From Sporofaciens musculi (GTDB taxonomy: Bacteria > Bacillota > Clostridia > Lachnospirales > Lachnospiraceae): a stretch of DNA of 64,000 bases. The stretch lies in the NCBI RefSeq assembly GCF_009830285.1, contig NZ_WUQX01000001.1, positions 4,030,501 through 4,094,500 on the forward strand. Direction: 5' to 3'. Each line of letters opens with the position of its first letter. Within the stretch, counting starts at the first letter, position 1. A model generated the notes under the pieces. It was not told the DNA's origin and ran no database searches. It was given only the letters and a program-made list of their open reading frames with translations. The position numbers were made by a program, and so were the translations under genes. This document shows, piece after piece, positions 1 through 9,339 of this stretch.

Positions 1-529
1 CACATCCTCTAGTAAAATTATAAATACCGACTGTGGCCTCATTGGATATCACTTCTTTTTCTCTGACTTCTTTTACTAAGTTCTGTTCGTCATAATTTAT
101 ATAAGACCATTTGGGATCGTCTGCCTTCATAGTCATGATGAATCCATCATAGTTCTTCCCCGAATTCAGATATTCGTTAATATCTATATCTACATATTGA
201 TCTGAATTCGCAATCATCAAATTATCTTCATTGTCAATGTATTCTTCTGCCAAAAGAACCGTACATGCTGCTCCTTCTGTTACCTCTTTAACTGGGATAA
301 TAAGACACCCCGGAGAAATCTGTTGCAGATAACTTTCCAATTCAAACTGTTCTAAATGTTCCTGCAGACATAAATATATGAACCGATGCTCGCATTCGGG
401 CATAATGTTTTTTGTTACAACCTCAATCATATATTTCCCATGAACATCAATCAGTGGTTTCGGCATCTTATATCCGGCTTTTACAAATCGACTTCCTCTC
501 CCTGCCATTGGCACTACAATATTTATCAT
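1..529 (-). CDS. Sugar-phosphate nucleotidyltransferase, partial (C-terminus outside window)
   Basis: This is the N-terminal 176 codons of a nucleotidyltransferase; the gene runs off the left edge. The start MINIVVPMAGRGSRF is the GxGxR nucleotide-binding loop of the sugar nucleotidyltransferase superfamily, followed by KMPKPLIDVHGKYMI (the PKPL motif) and, near residue 120, an IANSDQYVD metal-binding segment. Enzymes of this fold join an NTP to a sugar-1-phosphate. The start ATG overlaps the upstream cupin stop as TAATG, so translation is probably coupled. It is the last visible gene of the minus-strand sugar cluster and could supply the CTP-dependent step for the CDP-glucose dehydratase, but nucleotide specificity cannot be read here. 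Confidence 0.85.
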   Translation of the reverse strand, partial: MINIVVPMAGRGSRFVKAGYKMPKPLIDVHGKYMIEVVTKNIMPECEHRFIYLCLQEHLEQFELESYLQQISPGCLIIPVKEVTEGAACTVLLAEEYIDNEDNLMIANSDQYVDIDINEYLNSGKNYDGFIMTMKADDPKWSYINYDEQNLVKEVREKEVISNEATVGIYNFTRGC

Positions 530-864
530 TATTCATCTTCCTTTTCTGCAAAATATTTATCATTATTCATCCCCGGAATTTTAACAACAGTATTTACAGT
601 GTCTTCTAATGCTGTAAAATCAGTAATATCTCCAGGCTCTGCAATTACGATATCCCCTGCCTGCCATTCTGTTCCAAACATCTTTGCCCGTCCGGACATA
701 ATGACAGTAATTTCCGTGGCAATCTTGTGATAATGTGCTTCTTCATAATCACCTGTACTGTATTTTTTTACTGCTACTTCAACGTCATTTGTTTTAAAGA
801 GAGACGGTTCAAAATTACCTACGAACCATCCTTTTTTCATATTTTCGATTCTTTCACATCTCAT
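529..864 (-). CDS. Small cupin-fold protein
   Basis: A 111-aa protein with a single cupin barrel. The motif around EEAHYHKIATEITVIMSG matches the first cupin metal box (HxH, E), and GDIVIAEPGDITDFTAL fits the second box with its usual second His missing. The ATG at 864 is chosen over an upstream TTG because it follows AAAGGAA and lies just past the previous stop. Cupins in polysaccharide clusters are often sugar isomerases, epimerases or small regulators; the exact role here is not visible. It overlaps the next nucleotidyltransferase by one base. Confidence 0.75.
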   Translation of the reverse strand: MRCERIENMKKGWFVGNFEPSLFKTNDVEVAVKKYSTGDYEEAHYHKIATEITVIMSGRAKMFGTEWQAGDIVIAEPGDITDFTALEDTVNTVVKIPGMNNDKYFAEKEDE

Positions 865-871
865 ATTCTTA

Positions 872-1507
872 TTATTCCTTTTCAAAAAAATATTTGGCTT
901 CTTCTGGATAATCTGTGCAGAGATAAAAAGCTTCTTCCGTGTTCATGTGCTCCTGTTTAATCCTGTCCCACATTTTTTGCCTGGACTTTCCATGCAATTC
1001 CGGTGATACAGCCGCAACGCACTTTCCGGCATTCAACCCCTCCTTAGCCGAATCAAATAATTTCCAGTCATCGTCATAAAAAGTGTCCATCCATATTCCT
1101 GAAGCATCCTGATATAATACACATTCCTTTTCAATGTCGCTGCTTCTCGTAAAAAACTGAAAATTTTTTTGTTTATAAATCACCATTTCTGGAACAGACA
1201 TATCAAACACAAAGTAATTGGTAACTTTATACTTTTCTAGTTGTTCTCTAAGAATATCCTGAATACCATCAGACTTAATATTTAATGCCAATGGAACATT
1301 ATTGCCATATTGCCGATATAATTCAAATAATTCCTCACTAAGCACACTATTACAATCTGCAACATTATGCGATATTACCAGTTGACCACAATAATCTCGT
1401 AAATCTGTTTCTACTCCATATCCGTTTAAAAATGCTTTCTGAAACGAAATCATACTGTTTTTTTCTTTATTATTCTGCCACCATCCCCTATGTGCAATAA
1501 TTCTCAT
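872..1507 (-). CDS. GDPD-like phosphodiesterase
   Basis: A 211-aa protein that begins MRIIAHRGWWQN, the HRG signature of glycerophosphodiester phosphodiesterases, followed by VETDLRDYCGQLVISHN (the E-x-D metal pair and the second catalytic-site His, as HN rather than the usual HD). The family hydrolyses phosphodiesters in a TIM barrel. It is shorter than typical GDPDs (about 240-250 aa) and has no signal peptide, so it should be cytosolic. The start follows AGGAG with good spacing and overlaps the preceding nucleotidyltransferase by 20 bases. A link to phospho-decoration of a surface polymer is an inference from its neighbours. Confidence 0.75.
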   Translation of the reverse strand: MRIIAHRGWWQNNKEKNSMISFQKAFLNGYGVETDLRDYCGQLVISHNVADCNSVLSEELFELYRQYGNNVPLALNIKSDGIQDILREQLEKYKVTNYFVFDMSVPEMVIYKQKNFQFFTRSSDIEKECVLYQDASGIWMDTFYDDDWKLFDSAKEGLNAGKCVAAVSPELHGKSRQKMWDRIKQEHMNTEEAFYLCTDYPEEAKYFFEKE

Positions 1508-2228
1508 TTCTTCGCATCTCCTGTTCGTATTTTTTGATTTGCTTTAGCTCATAAAAAGTATGGTATTGCTCTTTTTCTACCGTATAGCTGACTACTTTTT
1601 TACCTTGCAGGATTATCTCATTTATAGCTGTAGATATAAAATATCTGCCATCATATTGCTGTCCTTTTAATATCGTTTTCTTAGCAGTCTCGACAAAATC
1701 TTTTCCTTTTTTAAAGTAATAAACTCCTGCTATTGCCTTTTTTGAGATAGGCCTCTTTTCAGCGGTTTCTATTACAAGATCATTTTCTACGCGCACAAAT
1801 GACCAACGTGGGTGAATACACTCAAAACAAACTACACCACAATCCGCATCTTTTTGACGAAAATCCTGTATAATCTCAAACAAATCACAGTCAAATTTTT
1901 GGTCATTGTTTGATATTAACAGCTCGTCATCATTATTTATAAGCTCTATTCCCATCAAACAAGTACATAATGCTCCTCCTGTTTCATTCTGTAGTGTAAT
2001 AATATTGGCATTTTCTTCTGACAACAAAGAAACCATATTGTCCGTATGAAAACGAATACATTCTTTTTCATTTAATATAAATATAAATTTCTTATCTGGA
2101 ATAGAGTTAAAATTTTCTACTGCATATTGTATCATTACCTTTCCGTTCACTTCTGTTACATTCTTCGGCCAGTAATTTTCAAGAAACTTCTGGTCATTTC
2201 CACATGCTGGAATCATAATATGTATCAT
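1488..2228 (-). CDS. Nucleotidyltransferase-family protein
   Basis: A 246-aa relative of the sugar nucleotidyltransferases. The N-terminal loop is degenerate (MIPACGNDQKF in place of GGxGTR), but NVTEVNGKVMIQYAVENF and the later ELLISNNDQKFDCD segment (in the place of the metal-binding SDQ) are recognisable. IAGVYYFKKG and DGRYFISTAINEI match the C-terminal core of the fold. Together with the gene at 1-529 it makes two separate nucleotidyltransferases in one cluster. The changed loop leaves open whether it is catalytic or regulatory. The ATG follows GGAGAG. Confidence 0.7.
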   Translation of the reverse strand: MIHIMIPACGNDQKFLENYWPKNVTEVNGKVMIQYAVENFNSIPDKKFIFILNEKECIRFHTDNMVSLLSEENANIITLQNETGGALCTCLMGIELINNDDELLISNNDQKFDCDLFEIIQDFRQKDADCGVVCFECIHPRWSFVRVENDLVIETAEKRPISKKAIAGVYYFKKGKDFVETAKKTILKGQQYDGRYFISTAINEIILQGKKVVSYTVEKEQYHTFYELKQIKKYEQEMRRNENYCT

Positions 2229-2244
2229 CTGTTCTCTCCATATT

Positions 2245-2865
2245 TCAAATACTTTGTAGTTTTGTTCTAATATTTGTATAATTTACATCATAAACCGTAT
2301 CTATTTTCAGTAAATGCCCGCCTGATGCTATTGCAGCAGCTATTCCATTTTTATTGTCCTCTAAAATCAGACATTCTTCAGGCTGAAGATTCAATTTTTT
2401 CATTGTTGTAATATAAATCTCTGGATTCGGTTTCGCCTTTTCAACATCCTCATTTGACATAATAAGATCTAAATATTCCAGCAGTTCTGCTCTTTCCATC
2501 ATTTCAATAATGGTTTTTCTTTTAGAATTGGAACATACCGCCAAAAGGTAGCCTTCCCTTTTTAACCTTGACAACGCATACTCATGCTGAAATAATGGCT
2601 TGCACTTTTGTGTAATGATTTCCATTGTGTATTGCTGTTTCAGTTGATTTATAAATTCATGCAGCTCTGTTGGCAAATAGGAAACTCTTCCAAGGAGTTC
2701 TAATTTATCTTTTGTTGGCAGCCCATCAAATGTATGAACATGGTCAAATCTGGAAATCTCACACCCAAACAGCTTTAATGCTTGGTTTAGTGCTTCATAG
2801 TGCCACTCTTTTGCATCAATCAACACCCCATCCATATCAAACAATATAGCTTTAATCCTACTCAC
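2245..2865 (-). CDS. HAD-superfamily phosphatase
   Basis: A 206-aa HAD hydrolase. Motif I is ILFDMDGVLID (nucleophile and acid Asp), motif II is LAVCSNSKRKT, the conserved Lys lies in VEKAKPNPEIY, and motif IV is CLILEDNKNGIAAA. The alpha-helical cap between motifs I and II resembles beta-phosphoglucomutase or sugar-phosphate phosphatases. In this operon it probably dephosphorylates a sugar-phosphate intermediate. It starts with GTG; an AGGAGG lies about 12 bases upstream, which is long spacing. Confidence 0.85.
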   Translation of the reverse strand: MSRIKAILFDMDGVLIDAKEWHYEALNQALKLFGCEISRFDHVHTFDGLPTKDKLELLGRVSYLPTELHEFINQLKQQYTMEIITQKCKPLFQHEYALSRLKREGYLLAVCSNSKRKTIIEMMERAELLEYLDLIMSNEDVEKAKPNPEIYITTMKKLNLQPEECLILEDNKNGIAAAIASGGHLLKIDTVYDVNYTNIRTKLQSI

Positions 2866-2882
2866 TATTATTTAGCACCTCC

Positions 2883-3959
2883 TTATATGCATCCTACTTT
2901 TTCCTTAAATAATAAATCCTGATACTCTGTAATCTGTTCAATCATCCTATCTTCTATCTGCTTTCCATCTGCAATCAACTTATATAAATCAACAGTCCTG
3001 GAGACCGCTTCATCAACATCCCAGATAGGCTTCCAATGAAGAACATTTTTAATTTTAGAACAATCCAACCTCAAAAACTGTGCTTCATGCGGCATATCTC
3101 TTTCAATATATTCTGGTTTGATTGAACCCCATTTGCGACAAAATAATTCCACAATTTCAAGAGTCGTAACACAATTTTTGTAATCAGGTCCAACATTATA
3201 ACATCCAGCAATTTCAAAATGTCTTGTTTGCTCTGCTGCAAGTGCCAAATATACAAAAACAGGCTCCAGTACATGTTGGTATGGTCTTACGGAATATGGT
3301 GAACGTATAATAACATTTCTGCGTTCACAAGCTGCCCTGTATGCATCTGGAAGAATTCGGTCTGCCGCAAAGTCTCCCCCGCCAATTACGTTACCAGCTC
3401 TTACGGTTGATACTGCAAGATTTTTCTCAGAAAAAAATGAATTTATGTAGCTTGACGTAACCAACTCTGAGCAAGATTTTGAATTTGAGTAAGGATCAAA
3501 ACCATTTAATACATCGTCTTCTCTATACCCCCAGTACCATTCATTATTTTTATATACTTTATCTGTTGTAATATTAATAACTGACTTTACACTATTACAA
3601 TTCCTTACAGCTTCCAGAATATTTACAGTTCCCATCACGTTCGTTTCATAGGTGTAAACAGGATTTTTATATGCTTCCAGTACAATTGGCTGTGCCGCAA
3701 GATGGAATACAATATCTGGCTCAAATGCTTCTACCGCCTTTAATACCTGAACCCTATCGCGTATATCGCCTGATACAGATTTTATATGTTCAGAAAGTTC
3801 CAACAGTTCAAATAGAGAGGGGGATGTTGGAGTCCCTATGGAAAATCCACATAATTGAGCCCCCCATTCCAACAAAACCTTGCATAGCCAAGAACCCTTG
3901 AAGCCTGTATGTCCCGTAATAAAAACTTTTTTTCCTTCATAAAATTTTTTTAGTTCCAA
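2883..3959 (-). CDS. rfbG: CDP-glucose 4,6-dehydratase
   Basis: A 358-aa short-chain dehydrogenase/reductase enzyme converting CDP-D-glucose to CDP-4-keto-6-deoxy-D-glucose, the entry to CDP-deoxysugars. The Rossmann loop is VFITGHTGFKGSWL. Further support comes from DIVFHLAAQP, the ITTDKVY segment, the EWYWGYREDD loop and the DPYSNSKSCSE catalytic Tyr/Lys region. This combination is characteristic of RfbG rather than RmlB or GalE. Translation most likely begins at TTG (3959), 7 bases after GGAGG. No 3,5-epimerase or 3-dehydratase is visible, so the final sugar is unknown. Confidence 0.9.
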   Translation of the reverse strand: MELKKFYEGKKVFITGHTGFKGSWLCKVLLEWGAQLCGFSIGTPTSPSLFELLELSEHIKSVSGDIRDRVQVLKAVEAFEPDIVFHLAAQPIVLEAYKNPVYTYETNVMGTVNILEAVRNCNSVKSVINITTDKVYKNNEWYWGYREDDVLNGFDPYSNSKSCSELVTSSYINSFFSEKNLAVSTVRAGNVIGGGDFAADRILPDAYRAACERRNVIIRSPYSVRPYQHVLEPVFVYLALAAEQTRHFEIAGCYNVGPDYKNCVTTLEIVELFCRKWGSIKPEYIERDMPHEAQFLRLDCSKIKNVLHWKPIWDVDEAVSRTVDLYKLIADGKQIEDRMIEQITEYQDLLFKEKVGCI

Positions 3960-3982
3960 ATACTATCCTCCATACTCCTAAA

Positions 3983-4576
3983 TTATTTAATGACGTTTTC
4001 ATATAACGTCTTTCCAATATACCCACCCGGATGATTCTGTCTGAAGCTCTCTATATCCAGCCCAAGCATATCCGCAATCTGCATTGCCAAGCCCTGCAGA
4101 ATAATCAAATTTAATGTAGTAGAATTATTAGGCATGATATTCCACAAATCTCCCTCATGTTCCAACTCAACTATGACGCTGTTCTCAATTTCCTTCGTCA
4201 ACGTACTTTCTCCGGAAAAAGTCAACAGCCACATATTCACCTTTCGCTTTTTCAGAAGCCTTGTAAGCAGAATAGATTCCTCCGTCTCGCCACTTTTTGA
4301 AAGCAAAATCACCATATCCCCCGCTTTTACCACTCCCATATCGCCATGTATAGCTGAATTGGTATGTAAAAAGCACGCGTCAAGCCCGATTGAAACCATT
4401 GACCCTACAAACTTCTCACAAATCGGAACATTTTTCCCCAAACCTGACACCACAATTTTATTGTCTCTTTTTAATACTTCTACCGCTTCCCTCACCCACC
4501 GGTCAAGTATCTGCCCATCCAAAGAGTGGACAGAGTGTTCAAACTCTTTTAACTGCTTCTCAAAATAGCGAATCAT
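3983..4576 (-). CDS. SIS-domain sugar-phosphate isomerase (KdsD/GutQ-like, no CBS domains)
   Basis: A 197-aa SIS protein. The substrate loop is VVSGLGKNVP, the second phosphate loop is ILLSKSGETEE, and the C-terminus has FRQNHPGGYIGKTLYE, the HPGG-x-IGK motif of arabinose-5-phosphate isomerases (KdsD/KpsF/GutQ). The CBS pair of full-length KdsD is absent, as in short versions. It probably interconverts a keto- and an aldo-sugar phosphate for the CDP-sugar pathway. The ATG at 4576 follows GGAGG and overlaps the preceding TGA (ATGA), so it is coupled to the kinase ORF. Confidence 0.85.
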   Translation of the reverse strand: MIRYFEKQLKEFEHSVHSLDGQILDRWVREAVEVLKRDNKIVVSGLGKNVPICEKFVGSMVSIGLDACFLHTNSAIHGDMGVVKAGDMVILLSKSGETEESILLTRLLKKRKVNMWLLTFSGESTLTKEIENSVIVELEHEGDLWNIMPNNSTTLNLIILQGLAMQIADMLGLDIESFRQNHPGGYIGKTLYENVIK

Positions 4577-6084
4577 AATATATCCTCCAGGTACCACAAT
4601 CCATTATAAAAAGCCCCGCAGACAGAATCGTAATCTTGCCAGGCATATGTAGTCAGCGACAGCCAAATCAATGCATGAAGCAGTTTGATTTCCCCAGGCT
4701 TTGTACCAGTCATTTTAAAAAAGGAGCTCTCCATATCCTCCCAATGATTGGATACAATATCAAGACACACATCCCTTTCCCTAATTTCCAACCGAAACTC
4801 TTTTAAATTAAATCTGTCATAATTTCCCACAATGGAATAATACAGCTTTGCCCAATCATAGCGCGGATCACCATAAAATCTAACATCTCCAAAGTATCCC
4901 CGCGGATCCAGCAATACTGGATTTTCATCCTCTCTCAGCATCAGATTTGAAAACGTGCAATCTCCATGAATAAAACTAAATTTTTCACACCCCATCTGTT
5001 CAATCAGGCATTCAATATCTTTTTATATAAAAAAATACATTCCTGCATCTTTTTCCATTAACCACAATATTTTTTCATTTGCAAAAGGTAAAAGATTCCT
5101 AATCTTATCGACACGATAAAATGTTTTATTCAAATAAACTTCCCTGCAGGCAGATAAATCTGCGGGAACCTGTTCTTTACTATGGAGGATTTGTAAGGTT
5201 TCCACCAATTTTTTTAGGACTTTTTTCTTCTCCTCATAAGACAACTGATATTCATAAATATTTTTCCCCTGAATCAATTCCATTTCTAATGGCTCTGTTC
5301 CGTAAATCTTTGGAAGCGCAGTAATTCCCAATTCTCCCGCCTTTTTATACCATTCCCGCTCTCTCTTTGCCAGCTTTCTGCCATGCTTGTCAACAGCCTC
5401 TTTGATAAATCGGTCTGCTCTGATTGTGATTCTATTGAATGGACGGCACTTATTTTGTTCTAATCTGCTATATTCCTCAAGCAGTCCAAATTCTTTTGTT
5501 CCATCTAAGCCTATTTCACAAAATTTCAATTTACTTTTCTGCATCCAACGTACCAACTCGCCATTTTCAGGAACTGCTTTTATTTTCTCTTTATCCGTAA
5601 ACAAGAAAAAACCCGCCACACCATGATCATAAGATTTTTTTTCTTCAAATCTCCCGGCAAAGTAAGACCATCGGCAGGGAAATGACTGAGATATACCAAT
5701 ATAATCTTCCGTAGGATTTGAGTATTCGCCGTCCTCATATCCTGACGGCAATTTCAAATCCATTGGGAGAAGCAAATCTGACCATATTAACAGAAACGGC
5801 TCCTTTTCCGGCAATAAATGAATTGCTTGCTTTATACCGGCACAAGTTCCGTTTCCCCTTGCTTCTACAATTTGATATTTCACATCCGCAAATACCTGTA
5901 AATATTCTTTCATAACTTCCTTTTTATAATCTGCGATAATTATAAAATGTTTGTCCTGGTATTTCCGAAAAAGATGGAATAGCATTGGAAGATTATTCAC
6001 CGGCACAAGCGCTTTAGGCTTATTTCTTGTCAAATATTCCAGACGTGTTCCTCTTCCGCCTGCCTGCACAATAATATAATTCAT
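4573..6084 (-). pseudogene. Nucleotidyltransferase-kinase fusion interrupted by an in-frame TAA
   Basis: Two ORFs in the same frame (6084-5023, 353 aa; 4995-4573, 140 aa) together form one 503-codon gene. The N-terminus (MNYIIVQAGGRGTRLEYL, NKPKALVPV) is a nucleotidyltransferase. From about residue 220 a choline/aminoglycoside-kinase-like N-lobe starts (FIKEAVDKHG, MELIQGKNIYEY). The catalytic loop (FIHGDCTFSNLM) and metal site (LLDPRGYFGD) lie after the TAA at 5025-5023. The TAA and the downstream ATG are 30 bases apart, so no frameshift is involved. The second ORF has no clear ribosome site. The first product would be a transferase with half a kinase. Sequencing error, a real nonsense mutation and reinitiation all remain possible. 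Confidence 0.8.
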
Positions 6085-6199
6085 TTAGACACTTTTATCT
6101 CCTGATTTATATTAAATAAGATACATATACTTTATTAAAACCAAATACTATACCTTGAATCATGAATACTACTTACATGTTTTAATAAAATATATTGGT

Positions 6200-6218
6200 C
6201 ATCTTTTACTAAAAGATG
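6200..6218. other. Short perfect hairpin
   Basis: CATCTTTT and AAAAGATG form a perfect 8-bp stem with an ACT loop. It lies between the tandem repeats and the sugar cluster. It is AT-rich with no following U-run of its own, so terminator activity is uncertain. Confidence 0.4.
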
Positions 6219-6255
6219 ATGCAGAATTCTCCGCTTCGCTCCCCGCTACCTCATG

Positions 6256-6420
6256 ACATGTCACCAACCTCTGGTTGATGACCTTCTTGTGCCTCAGCAC
6301 ACTTCCTCTTATACATGTCACCAACCTCTGGTTGATGACCTTCTTGTGCCTCAGCACACTTCCTCGTTATACATGTCACCAACCTCTGGTTGATGACCTT
6401 CTTGTGCTTCATGTTCACAG
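6256..6420. repeat. Three tandem 57-58 bp hairpin repeats
   Basis: Copies start at 6256, 6313 and 6371 (periods 57 and 58; the second copy has one extra G). The first two are almost identical, and the third diverges after about 38 bases. On the minus strand each carries CATCAACC-AGA-GGTTGGTG, an 8-bp stem with one G-U pair; the plus-strand version has a C-A mismatch at that pair, so the minus-strand RNA folds better. A second small stem, GTGC-TGAG-GCAC, lies in the unit. The array sits 225-390 bp downstream of the TnpB-like gene and reads in the same direction. The rest of 6085-6644 holds no gene I can support. Confidence 0.85.
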
Positions 6421-6644
6421 GGTCTTGGCATACCCAATACGCAGGTTTAAGAATTCACTTATCTCCTGCCTTCTAATGCCGTAAGTTATTTTTATATTAC
6501 AGGTACATATCATACCCGCTTTATCATGAACTTGCCCCTTAGTCCTGAAACCCCTTCGGGAATTTCCATAATTCCCTAGTGATCCATTTAACGGTAAACT
6601 CCCGGCTCATCACCGAAACTTATCTAAATGGCTGTTCTTATGAC

Positions 6645-7958
6645 CTAATATAGCTTCCCATCTCCCTGCCCCCGCTTCTTCACATTACGGGCAGTATTAA
6701 TCTTATCCTCCGACTGATACCCACACAAGGAGCACAGAAACTTCCCCTTTTCTTTGCTTCCAAATTCGCCGCACTCGCTGCACACCTTACTGATATCTTT
6801 CCCCAGAACTTCCACAATATCAATCGACTGCTCCCTGCATTTCTGCCACAGACGTTTCCGAATATATCCTCTCTGCCACTGGGCAACGGAATAATTAATC
6901 TCCTTATTGTATCCCCCTGCCTGTGGTTTCGCCAGCCTCACTATGTAGACCGTCTTCGGTTTCTCTGTAATAAGGAAACGATTCAGTTCCTGATTAATAT
7001 AACTGTGCAGCCGTTCTTCCAGACGCCGCTTTTTGTCATAATACTTTTTACGCCCTGGATTATTGTCTTTATTGCGGCGATAACTGCTTGTCTGTATCCG
7101 CACCCATTCTGAATACTCCAACTGGTATCTGCCTAATTTTTCCCCATAGCGATGCCCCTCATCTGTAGTCAGCATCGTATAGAATCCAGCAGCCACACCT
7201 ACCTGATTAATATAATCCTTATGGCTTTGGACAGTTACATTTACAGGCGCCTTAATCTCTATGCGGCTTTCCTCTGGATACAGCTTAATCCGTAATTGAC
7301 TTTGATACTGATTATTGTCTGTCAGCAGAATAAAGACGCGCTTACGCTTCTCCTTGGTGGAGATATAGATTCCATGGTCTGCATAACGATACGCCCTCTC
7401 TGCTATGGAAAATACATCGGCTGCATCCGTATTGAGCTTCACATGATATTTTCGCACCTTTCTGCACAGATATCGGTGTATTCGTTCCACATCAACCTGC
7501 CCTGCCAGCTCACAATACTGCTTCTGAATCTTCCCAGTCAACTCTATGGGCTTCTGATTCAGTACCGCCTCAAACGCATTATTGACCTTTAACAGAAAGC
7601 GAAGATAATGCTTATCTTCTTCCGTAAAACTACCATTCTTGTTGATCAGTTTTCCAATCTTCGTCTTTGTCCTGGTCCACTGGCTCTTAATGTCCGCCAA
7701 CGCATCAAAGACCGCAAGATAAAAATAGACTGAGGGCAGTCCTACAACCTCCCTGTAACCGCTGGCTGTCATCTCGTTCTGAACCGTATATCCCGGATAT
7801 ATTTTAGGCAAACTACCAATTCCACCATACCGGCTATATACATAGTTCTTAACCTTTCTGTAGCCCTCGGCAATATCCAGAAGTTTCTGCATATCTCCTT
7901 CTGACACTGGCTTCTTATTATACTGATGGACTGTCTTGCATATCTTATCCGGCGGCAT
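6645..7958 (-). CDS. TnpB-related protein (IS200/IS605 OrfB family) with apparently inactive RuvC site
   Basis: A 437-aa TnpB-family protein. The C-terminal zinc ribbon is clear: CSECG near residue 393 and CSLCG near 409. The RuvC fold can be aligned, but the acidic residues are missing. Motif I reads VGVAAGF (253-259) where TnpB has G-[IV]-D-L-G. Motif II reads TVYIVRL (336-342) where TnpB has the IVIEDL Glu. Motif III reads EDKINTARN (417-425) with Lys where the D of D-x-N-A-A is expected. TnpB is normally an RNA-guided nuclease. Loss of all three suggests an RNA-guided binder without cleavage, as in TldR repressors. The ATG at 7958 follows AAGGAG; a GTG at 8021 is an alternative. No TnpA lies nearby. 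Confidence 0.8.
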   Translation of the reverse strand: MPPDKICKTVHQYNKKPVSEGDMQKLLDIAEGYRKVKNYVYSRYGGIGSLPKIYPGYTVQNEMTASGYREVVGLPSVYFYLAVFDALADIKSQWTRTKTKIGKLINKNGSFTEEDKHYLRFLLKVNNAFEAVLNQKPIELTGKIQKQYCELAGQVDVERIHRYLCRKVRKYHVKLNTDAADVFSIAERAYRYADHGIYISTKEKRKRVFILLTDNNQYQSQLRIKLYPEESRIEIKAPVNVTVQSHKDYINQVGVAAGFYTMLTTDEGHRYGEKLGRYQLEYSEWVRIQTSSYRRNKDNNPGRKKYYDKKRRLEERLHSYINQELNRFLITEKPKTVYIVRLAKPQAGGYNKEINYSVAQWQRGYIRKRLWQKCREQSIDIVEVLGKDISKVCSECGEFGSKEKGKFLCSLCGYQSEDKINTARNVKKRGQGDGKLY

Positions 7959-8027
7959 CTTTACTCCTTCATACTGAATGATATGAAATCTGCAAGAATA
8001 CGCTCTTTGCTTATAAAACACAACACA

Positions 8028-8053
8028 TTACGAATAAGTATACTTTTTCGTAA
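8028..8053. promoter_or_regulatory. 26-bp palindrome, copy 1 (one mismatch)
   Basis: TTACGAATAAGTA followed by TACTTTTTCGTAA is a near-perfect palindrome centred on GTATAC. It lies directly upstream of the TnpB-like gene and differs from the second copy by one base. It is likely an operator or a transposon-end structure. Confidence 0.6.
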
Positions 8054-8107
8054 GAGTTTTTTGGAAAATTTTTAGACATATATTACAAAAAATAGATGTT
8101 AAGTTTA

Positions 8108-8136
8108 TTGACGAATTGTCGATAATATATTAGAAT
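8108..8136 (+). promoter_or_regulatory. Sigma-A-type promoter for the methyltransferase gene
   Basis: TTGACG, 17 bases, TAGAAT, facing the methyltransferase at 8290. The predicted transcription start lies about 20 bases before the perfect palindrome at 8164. Confidence 0.6.
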
Positions 8137-8163
8137 GTTTAAGAAATCAATGGGAAATTGCCA

Positions 8164-8189
8164 TTACGAAAAAGTATACTTTTTCGTAA
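8164..8189. promoter_or_regulatory. 26-bp perfect palindrome, copy 2
   Basis: TTACGAAAAAGTA and its exact reverse complement meet at GTATAC. The arms are too AT-rich for an intrinsic terminator. Its position just downstream of the plus-strand promoter fits a repressor site. With copy 1 it brackets 110 bp of intergenic DNA. Confidence 0.65.
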
Positions 8190-8289
8190 TGTAATCTATT
8201 TTGCATAAAAAGTACGGAAAATTCTTTGATTATGTAGAATTTACGTCGATTCATTAGATTTCTAAACTTAAAAAGAGAAGGTTGATTAT

Positions 8290-9339
8290 ATGAAGCTTGT
8301 TTTATGGGGGAGAGGCAGAGACTTTAATATTTTAATGATGGCTGCAAGCTGGAAGAAGGACGTACAGATTGTAGGTGTTATTCAGAGCGAGTGTAATGGA
8401 AACGAAGAATTTTTATGTGGAAATCAAAGATTTATTTTGTATAATAAAGATATTTTGGACACATTGGAATTTGACTATATCATAATTGCAAATTCACATT
8501 ACAAAGATATAATTGTAAATAATCTTCATAAGAAATATATAAATCAGATGATTATTCCCTATGCATGCGATTGCCAAAATAAGGAAGCTGCAATAACCAA
8601 GATGCAGATGTTTGTTGACAATCCAAGAGATGTTGTTGTGAGACTATCAGGTTTGCACTGGGGATATGAGATACTGCCAATGCATTTTGATTTAAAAGAT
8701 ACCTCTGTATTATATGAACAAGATGTTTTTGTTGAGCTGGCCGACTATACAAGAGTTAGGACCACTGAACTAATTATTAAAGAATTAAAGGAAAATAATA
8801 TAGACGGTGCAATGGCGGAAGTTGGGGTATTTAGAGGAAGGTATGCAAAGATTTTCAGCCATTATTTTCCAGAGAAAAGCTTATATTTATATGATACTTT
8901 TGAAGGCTTTGATTCAAAACAATTAGAAGATGAAATCAAAGAGAAACATGCGAATGTCACATGGGCGCAATTATTTTATAATACCAGCGAAGAACTTGTA
9001 AAGAATTATATTAAAAATGAAAAAAATACATTTATACGAAAAGGCTTTTTCCCAAATACGATCGAATTGAAAGAAAAAGATGATAAGTTTTGTTTGGTTT
9101 CTTTGGATGCAGATCTATATGAACCTATTTTAGAAGGATTACGTTTTTTTTATCCCAGACTGGTAACAGGAGGGTATATTTTAGTACACGATTATAACGG
9201 ACTGGATATAATAGGTAATGAATATATCACCTTAGCAGGAGTCAAAAAAGCCATAAAAGATTATGAAAAAGAAATAGGGAAAGGTTTATGTAAAGTTCCT
9301 ATTTCCGATATGAATGGTTCTGTTATTATAACCAAATGA
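8290..9339 (+). CDS. TylF/MycF-type methyltransferase
   Basis: A 349-aa protein with two parts. Residues 1-120 look like a small Rossmann-type sensing or sugar-binding domain (MKLVLWGRGRDF, DYIIIANSHY). Residues 150-349 match the macrocin O-methyltransferase family (TylF): AEVGVFRGRYAKIF is the SAM loop, LYLYDTFEGFD the second acidic loop, and FCLVSLDADLYEPI plus GGYILVHDYNG the metal-binding DD segment. The family methylates sugar hydroxyls using SAM and a divalent metal. The ATG follows GAAGG. It is probably a decoration enzyme for the polysaccharide region, now separated from it by the TnpB-like gene. Confidence 0.85.
   Translation: MKLVLWGRGRDFNILMMAASWKKDVQIVGVIQSECNGNEEFLCGNQRFILYNKDILDTLEFDYIIIANSHYKDIIVNNLHKKYINQMIIPYACDCQNKEAAITKMQMFVDNPRDVVVRLSGLHWGYEILPMHFDLKDTSVLYEQDVFVELADYTRVRTTELIIKELKENNIDGAMAEVGVFRGRYAKIFSHYFPEKSLYLYDTFEGFDSKQLEDEIKEKHANVTWAQLFYNTSEELVKNYIKNEKNTFIRKGFFPNTIELKEKDDKFCLVSLDADLYEPILEGLRFFYPRLVTGGYILVHDYNGLDIIGNEYITLAGVKKAIKDYEKEIGKGLCKVPISDMNGSVIITK

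Follow-up and report, generated by a model that had tools for sequence, protein, structure and literature searches.

TnpB keeps its guide RNA 3' of its own gene. The capsule loci of Bacteroides have invertible promoters and UpxY/UpxZ, with several phase-variable polysaccharide operons per genome and a regulator as the first gene, and NusG paralogues (UpxY, LoaP) aid read-through of polysaccharide operons other than those described here. TldRs, as presented in PMC13418256, are TnpB-like nuclease-dead repressors. The same text describes CsrA-associated TldRs of Oscillibacter and Flavonifractor, which target flagellin genes and have hin upstream; inversions of ~120 bp are given for these loci, in a region with a FliA-dependent promoter (PMC13418256). 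TldRs beside flagellin invertons are, from that text, already published.

Here we describe a locus in a window of 64,000 nucleotides, this being the whole stretch of Sporofaciens musculi DNA that was analysed. A TnpB-like gene lies there between an invertible segment and an operon, with an RNA in the leader of the operon (Table 1). From the evidence presented below, it is well supported that this dead TnpB is the domesticated head of phase-variable glycan operons and has a partner RNA.

Table 1. Features of the dead tnpB locus (positions in the window)
Feature	Position	Strand	Remark
Operon: nucleotidyltransferase, kinase-like piece, SIS isomerase, NDP-sugar dehydratase, HAD phosphatase, nucleotidyltransferase, two ORFs without Pfam match	529..6084	-	
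Second copy of the word with flank, AAAGTATA	6110..6133	-	Candidate target just before the first operon gene
3' word of the RNA, CCAATATATTTTATTAAA	6181..6198	-	Probable guide position
Conserved structured RNA (omega-RNA-like), operon leader	6181..6644	-	Covariance model, covariation; leader RNA folds at z -7.6
Three tandem hairpin units within one RNA loop	6256..6423	-	Unit number varies among loci
Nuclease-dead TnpB-like protein	6645..8021	-	Stop at 6645; 458 aa from GTG 8021; probable start ATG 7958 (437 aa)
K440 codon, second RuvC Asp position	6702..6704	-	Column D in 7/7 intact; K 96, R 8, S 1 of 105 dead
V361 codon, RuvC Glu position	6939..6941	-	Column E in 7/7 intact; acid in 0/105 dead
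A277 codon, first RuvC Asp position	7191..7193	-	Column D in 7/7 intact; A 68, S 36, Y 1 of 105 dead
Gene-proximal inverted-repeat arm	8026..8053	.	
Promoter-like sequence within the invertible segment	8108..8137	+	Points away from dead tnpB in this assembly (OFF)
Distal inverted-repeat arm	8162..8191	.	
Divergent TylF-like methyltransferase gene	8290..9339	+	Faced by the promoter now

Relatives of the protein were collected by tblastn, and the 144 loci with a match came down to 105 after removal of identical proteins and of matches spanning <380 query residues. When the catalytic columns of the 105 distinct proteins were aligned with those of seven intact relatives, all seven intact proteins read D/E/D, and none of the three acids was present in any of the 105. 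The window protein has A277, V361 and K440 at these places; in the Glu column the dead proteins read V (62), P (24), A (13), I (3) and M, T or Q (1 each). The Asp/Glu/Asp triad of active IS200/IS605 or IS607 TnpB is thus absent from the family. The loss had earlier been read by eye; since the aligned columns separate the two groups without exception, it is not an error of that reading. Four relatives of G840 were left out when the acids were read by motif pattern; L224 escaped the motif I pattern, although its aligned residue is D. The nearest intact relatives found were proteins from another family of the same class, and the identity of the window protein to intact relatives was 31–32% over about 427 residues (among the four pairs listed). 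At the level of aligned sequences, the dead TnpB status of the window protein is established.

In a quick tree that took in 88 of the 105 dead proteins, seven intact and five other TnpB, the dead proteins formed one side of a branch with a support of 94; long branches were flagged. Among the close pairs with dS between 0.05 and 1.5 (30 of 43), the median dN/dS was 0.08 and the maximum 0.17, and these close pairs are accordingly under strong purifying selection. The window ORF is intact and full-length. Its product matched Cas12f1-like_TNB of Pfam (E 2e-6) and guided_TnpB of NCBIfam (E 2e-7, which is under the family cut-off). The fold predicted from 58 family sequences had a mean pLDDT of 86, and was used in place of a poor earlier model from 19 sequences (pLDDT 61.5). 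In a Foldseek search with this fold, ranks 1–7 were Cas12f (TM on query 0.45–0.51, rmsd 12–20), and rank 10 was the ISDra2 TnpB 8h1j (TM 0.56/0.69, rmsd 5.9). The modelled fold is a match to the TnpB/Cas12f family, not a tight superposition; it is not the NusG-like fold of antiterminators of the UpxY/LoaP type.

No Y1 TnpA was found near dead tnpB, each of the five matches in the genome being either on a different contig or separated by 195 kb or more from every copy. No TnpB above the family cut-off was found in the window genome. An ordinary IS with a decayed TnpB was considered, and is ruled out by the median dN/dS and by the lack of an adjacent TnpA. As expected of a TldR, dead tnpB stands apart, in the own genome, from Y1 TnpA and is tied to host genes, which are the glycan genes downstream. 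The sequence-only reading had proposed a full-length ORF with altered motifs, a folded TnpB without its three acids, constraint on the protein, no adjoining TnpA and something other than an ordinary IS; all of this was borne out.

The window genome (G000, 5.76 Mb) has seven full-length copies, with identities of 100, 70, 72, 71, 71, 64 and 49%, and one remnant. Two of the copies, L004 and L005, lie 29 kb apart; their middle and 3' parts and their RNA are nearly identical, their N-terminal regions and operons differ, and the mosaic looks as after gene conversion. Within the genus, 9 of 12 genomes had a match, a count that takes in the own genome and a weak fragment (E 8e-4); within the family Lachnospiraceae, the figure was 18 of the 397 genomes drawn, own included. 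In named genomes, a scan gave 264 stretches that encode a relative; we retained the best 80, which include loci of Dorea sp. 5-2, Schaedlerella arabinosiphila and Acetatifactor muris. Read from the names of the genome records, the carriers are presumably gut bacteria.

Directly past the stop codon starts an RNA of about 210–720 nt (median about 305) in 92 of the 105 loci. These 92 formed the RNA alignment; eight loci with a variant of the 3' word and five without an anchor, two of them having little sequence past the gene, were left out. In an alignment of 26 sequences, 21 of the 33 predicted pairs changed on both sides in some sequence, as against a mean of 10.5 in shuffles, none of 500 having as many; because these same sequences had served to predict the structure, the predicted pairs are at an advantage in such a count. 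In the alignment of 26 sequences, 96% of the cells pair, a value reached by 0/500 shuffles, and slid structures were only 33–45% paired. Several helices are backed by covariation. A covariance model built from loci outside G000 matched the window at 6182–6482 with an E of 2e-31, and matched the RNAs of L009–L014 with an E of 1e-8 or better. When the dead-family model was run on 12 loci of intact relatives, there was no match; RNA homology with these therefore rests on short blocks aligned by eye. No Rfam family was found in the window at 6000–8500 with an E up to 1, or in five loci at gathering scores. A simple terminator scan reported one terminator-like stem inside the RNA; from the end of the RNA to the first gene, the operon strand gave none. 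A group I intron in the intact relatives was also considered and rejected, no Rfam match being obtained in the three loci searched (L217, L219, L220). From covariation and the fold z-score of the window leader (-7.6), a partner RNA 3' of dead tnpB is strongly supported; the gene, like that of a TldR, has a dedicated RNA encoded 3' of it. Gene, RNA and operon would be co-transcribed, and the protein and the RNA would presumably form an RNP.

The RNA ends in CCAATRTRYYTTATT, an unpaired word that is nearly invariant among loci. The strict pattern of the word was found in 86 of the 105 loci and a looser one in 6, with 8 variants and 5 loci without anchor. No covarying partner for the word was found inside the RNA. 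Immediately before the word stands an ACC, the CC of which pairs with an early GG in the consensus fold; as this helix hardly varies, covariation is neither for nor against it. The intact relatives keep ACGG and end in ..AGAACCAG, with diverging sequence after it (8/8, by eye). The fold and this end of the intact relatives place the start of a guide, by eye, where the word stands, and hence we assign the word to the probable guide position. Judged from the aligned loci, the RNA end is a near-invariant word, not a locus-specific guide. Since the word is common to many loci, a common target would be expected. As a separate observation, the eight intact relatives L237–L244 have the left end AGGAGCAAC (AGGAGCAACA in one) and the right end ..AGAACCAG; in L238, coding sequence on both sides suggests that AGGAG is part of the target.

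The genes around the loci were assigned by Pfam for 73 first and 72 second genes downstream and 70 genes upstream, all drawn from the 80 named loci. Sugar and glycan enzymes were the commonest families listed for the first and second downstream genes (best 25 of 29 and best 25 of 45 families). They comprise DegT aminotransferases, nucleotidyltransferases, IspD-like and CTP-transferase-like proteins, Gfo/Idh oxidoreductases, glycosyltransferases and capsule synthesis proteins, with few members per family. There was no match at the cut-off for the first genes of L068, L082, L112 and L117 (171, 867, 921 and 908 aa, respectively), or for one second gene (344 aa) that was tested singly. csrA and flagellin were absent among the families listed for the nearest neighbours (best 25 per list). 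The first operon gene of the window (4573–6084) appears split into ORFs of 353 and 140 aa, as compared with one ORF of 505–507 aa in L009, L012 and L013.

Upstream of dead tnpB, a core of ~110 bp between inverted repeats carries the promoter-like sequence TTGACG-17-TAGAAT. In the 2.5 kb scanned there were 11 promoter-like matches against 7.6 in shuffles, and so the assignment of the promoter rests on conservation and not on the scan. A core of the window type was recognised in 31 of the 105 loci, pointing away from the gene in 27 and towards it in 4. By a stricter site pattern, 48 of the 105 loci had two repeat sites 45–140 bp apart; 33 of these 48 cores clustered, with orientations of 16:4, 8:2 and 3:0 and no inconsistent edge. 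The comparison of L112 with L115, which come from two assemblies and are 95% identical as loci, is one of two that show inversion: the core was 97% identical when inverted and 52% when direct, the right flank, gene and 3' side being 94, 95 and 93% identical and the left flanks differing (45%). Similarly, the core of L026 was 91% identical to that of its paralogue L018 when inverted and 57% when direct (flanks 90 and 78%). In G000, the core was directed away from the gene in all six copies that have one (L001–L006), and towards it in the remnant L008. The predicted promoter between inverted repeats thus occurs in both orientations, as befits an invertible promoter (phase variation).

A tyrosine-recombinase N-terminal motif (GENIRKRKDGRW type) or active-site box was present within 2.5 kb upstream in 20 of the 94 loci for which 1.3 kb or more of upstream sequence was available, and Pfam found Phage_integrase in three examples. 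Downstream of dead tnpB, such motifs were found in 0/105 loci. Among the nearest upstream genes of 70 loci, Pfam assigned 10 to Phage_integrase and 5 to Resolvase (hin family). Our identification of the acting recombinase is putative. It may be noted that the commonest upstream families, among those listed, were AAA-ATPase_like (12/70), PDDEXK_9 (10/70) and Phage_integrase (10/70). The switch may choose between two divergent transcripts, as the promoter now faces the methyltransferase gene. In L033, L111 and L112, the gene-start (or just-before-start) sequence recurs beyond the inverton in long inverted copies, as though two divergent loci had one promoter in common.

We looked for DNA that the word could address. 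Copies of the word with the flank AAAGTWTA, of which the window has one (Table 1), occurred between the RNA and the first gene at ≤5 mismatches to the site consensus in 18 of the 86 leaders counted (of 105 loci; six more fit only the looser word), and ~0 in resampled sequence; the remaining 68 leaders had no such site. The exact form of the site occurs three times in the genome, always within these leaders. Genome-wide, the site pattern at ≤2 mismatches gave 7 matches against 12 for a reversed control, and the word itself was no commoner than its reversed control (26 against 28); the 15 word matches outside the loci had no shared flank (by eye). No general target within the locus emerged, the own guide scoring 11.26 against its own locus and a shuffled guide 11.33, and no word match recurred in the inverton. 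The sequence-only reading had also proposed an RNA-guided DNA binder. Its premises hold, in that the protein is nuclease-dead, folded and constrained and has a covarying RNA 3' of its gene; a general DNA target, on the other side, was not found. That reading had overlooked the invertible promoter, the recombinase and the polysaccharide operon, from which the likely biological role follows. From these sequence data, the protein is likely an RNA-guided regulator, which would target DNA and presumably repress.

The reading that we prefer is that of a domesticated, TldR-like, nuclease-dead RNP that heads phase-variable polysaccharide operons and represses at leader sites, and we put its chance of being right at about even. 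According to this proposal, a TnpB nuclease would have been domesticated in Lachnospiraceae-type bacteria, losing the three catalytic acids and keeping its fold and 3' RNA, and would have come to stand first in phase-variable operons for surface polysaccharides. The promoter of ~110 bp would be flipped by a recombinase. With the promoter facing the locus, one transcript would carry the dead-TnpB mRNA, the partner RNA and the polysaccharide genes. The protein and the RNA would then form a TldR-like complex that binds DNA without cleavage, and its binding to word-plus-flank sites in polysaccharide leaders would lower transcription, so that few loci would be on together.

The match between words and sites bears on which loci would be repressed. 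We compared 24 sites, a set that allows ≤7 mismatches and includes near-identical orthologues (L068, L069) and recent duplicates (L010, L011). At none of them did the own word match fully, the best own match being 11/13. Within genomes, the own word matched 8.9 and the words of other loci 9.7 of 13 positions (mean over 21 sites). In 17 of 21 comparisons the own match fell short of the average for the other loci, and random guides were as low in 4.6% of draws; this test was chosen post hoc, and sites and guides that share a genome or belong to orthologues are not independent data. In G000, the word common to L010 and L011 matches the L001 site 13/13, and the L009 word matches the sites of L010 and L011 13/13, the own matches at these three sites being 10–11 of 13. 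The same matching in two more genera gave one site, at a locus already counted, and no new ones. Words that mismatch their own site and match those of others suggest, on weak statistics, cross-regulation among the loci. A locus switched on might then silence its rivals and bring about mutual exclusion of surface glycans; we regard this extension as doubtful, and cross-locus exclusion as an attractive, weakly supported lead.

Another explanation is that dead TnpB acts in cis, binding the nascent leader RNA and aiding polymerase read-through, DNA targeting having been lost and the word being an RNA element. The RNA does lie between gene and operon on the same strand, its 3' word is unpaired and conserved among loci, unlike a guide, and no general DNA target was found. 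The position of the RNA may, however, be inherited, since TnpB has its RNA 3' of the gene anyway. Moreover, the remnant L008 (L008/L015 in G000) has lost most of the gene and RNA, yet glycan-type genes remain downstream. In this remnant, the promoter points towards the gene and the left repeat arm is missing; the gene breaks off near codon 76 and runs straight into the last word of the RNA, with an IS in the next gene. As the IS interrupts the first operon gene, the locus may simply be decaying, and the remnant argues only weakly against an indispensable cis activator. We consider a cis-acting leader factor to be rather unlikely.

Repression at leader sites could also be self-limiting, with the RNP binding the leader site of its own operon as a roadblock and capping its own expression. 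The location of the 18 leader sites between RNA and first gene fits such a role. The words do not, as none fully matches its own site, and other loci of the same genome match better on average in most of the comparisons described above; a self-imposed roadblock is improbable. Alternatively, the RNP might bind in or near the inverted repeats and bias or lock the switch. Gene and inverton co-occur, and recombinase motifs were found upstream in about a fifth of the loci, but the repeat sequence varies among subfamilies while the word is nearly constant, and no match to the word recurs in the inverton. An accessory role in promoter inversion is therefore very unlikely. That dead TnpB is a functionless passenger of mobile origin, as TnpB ancestry and multiple copies might suggest, is hardly credible in view of the strong purifying selection, the conserved RNA pairs, the recurring operon context and the lack of an adjacent TnpA or of a TnpB over the cut-off in the genome.

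We now compare the dead TnpB, taken as a domesticated RNP at the head of switchable operons, with known systems. Like intact TnpB (L196, L197, L218–L224), the dead proteins are alignable over the full length and have short RNA blocks in common with them; the intact loci differ in having the catalytic acids, diverging sequence past ..AGAACCAG and recognisable element ends. The Bacteroides capsule loci resemble the present ones in having several phase-variable polysaccharide operons with the regulator first, but here a dead TnpB and its RNA take the place of the NusG paralogue or UpxZ, and the phylum is different. Among the papers listed in literature searched largely without subscription titles, no report was found of a dead or domesticated TnpB with polysaccharide loci or an invertible promoter. 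If our proposal is true, RNA-guided regulators also head switchable loci for surface sugars, in addition to the flagellin cases found in print, and the choice of coat by such cells becomes open to a concrete test.

The closest known systems are the TldRs, compared here by description. The flagellin-associated TldR is likewise a TnpB homologue with a mutated RuvC and a retained guide RNA, linked to a host surface trait and not to a transposon (PMC13418256). It differs in being associated with fliC, whereas dead TnpB is associated with polysaccharide operons. As described, it also differs in its locus-specific guides, the dead family having a conserved word and no general target found; seven full-length copies in the genome and an RNA in the operon leader further set the dead family apart. 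The CsrA-associated TldRs, too, are chromosomal, occur in Firmicutes at multiple loci with predicted cross-targeting, and have a recombinase upstream and an inversion of ~120 bp around a promoter (PMC13418256). Compared by description, those loci have the serine invertase Hin, csrA and flagellin, whereas the dead TnpB loci have mainly a tyrosine recombinase and glycan genes.
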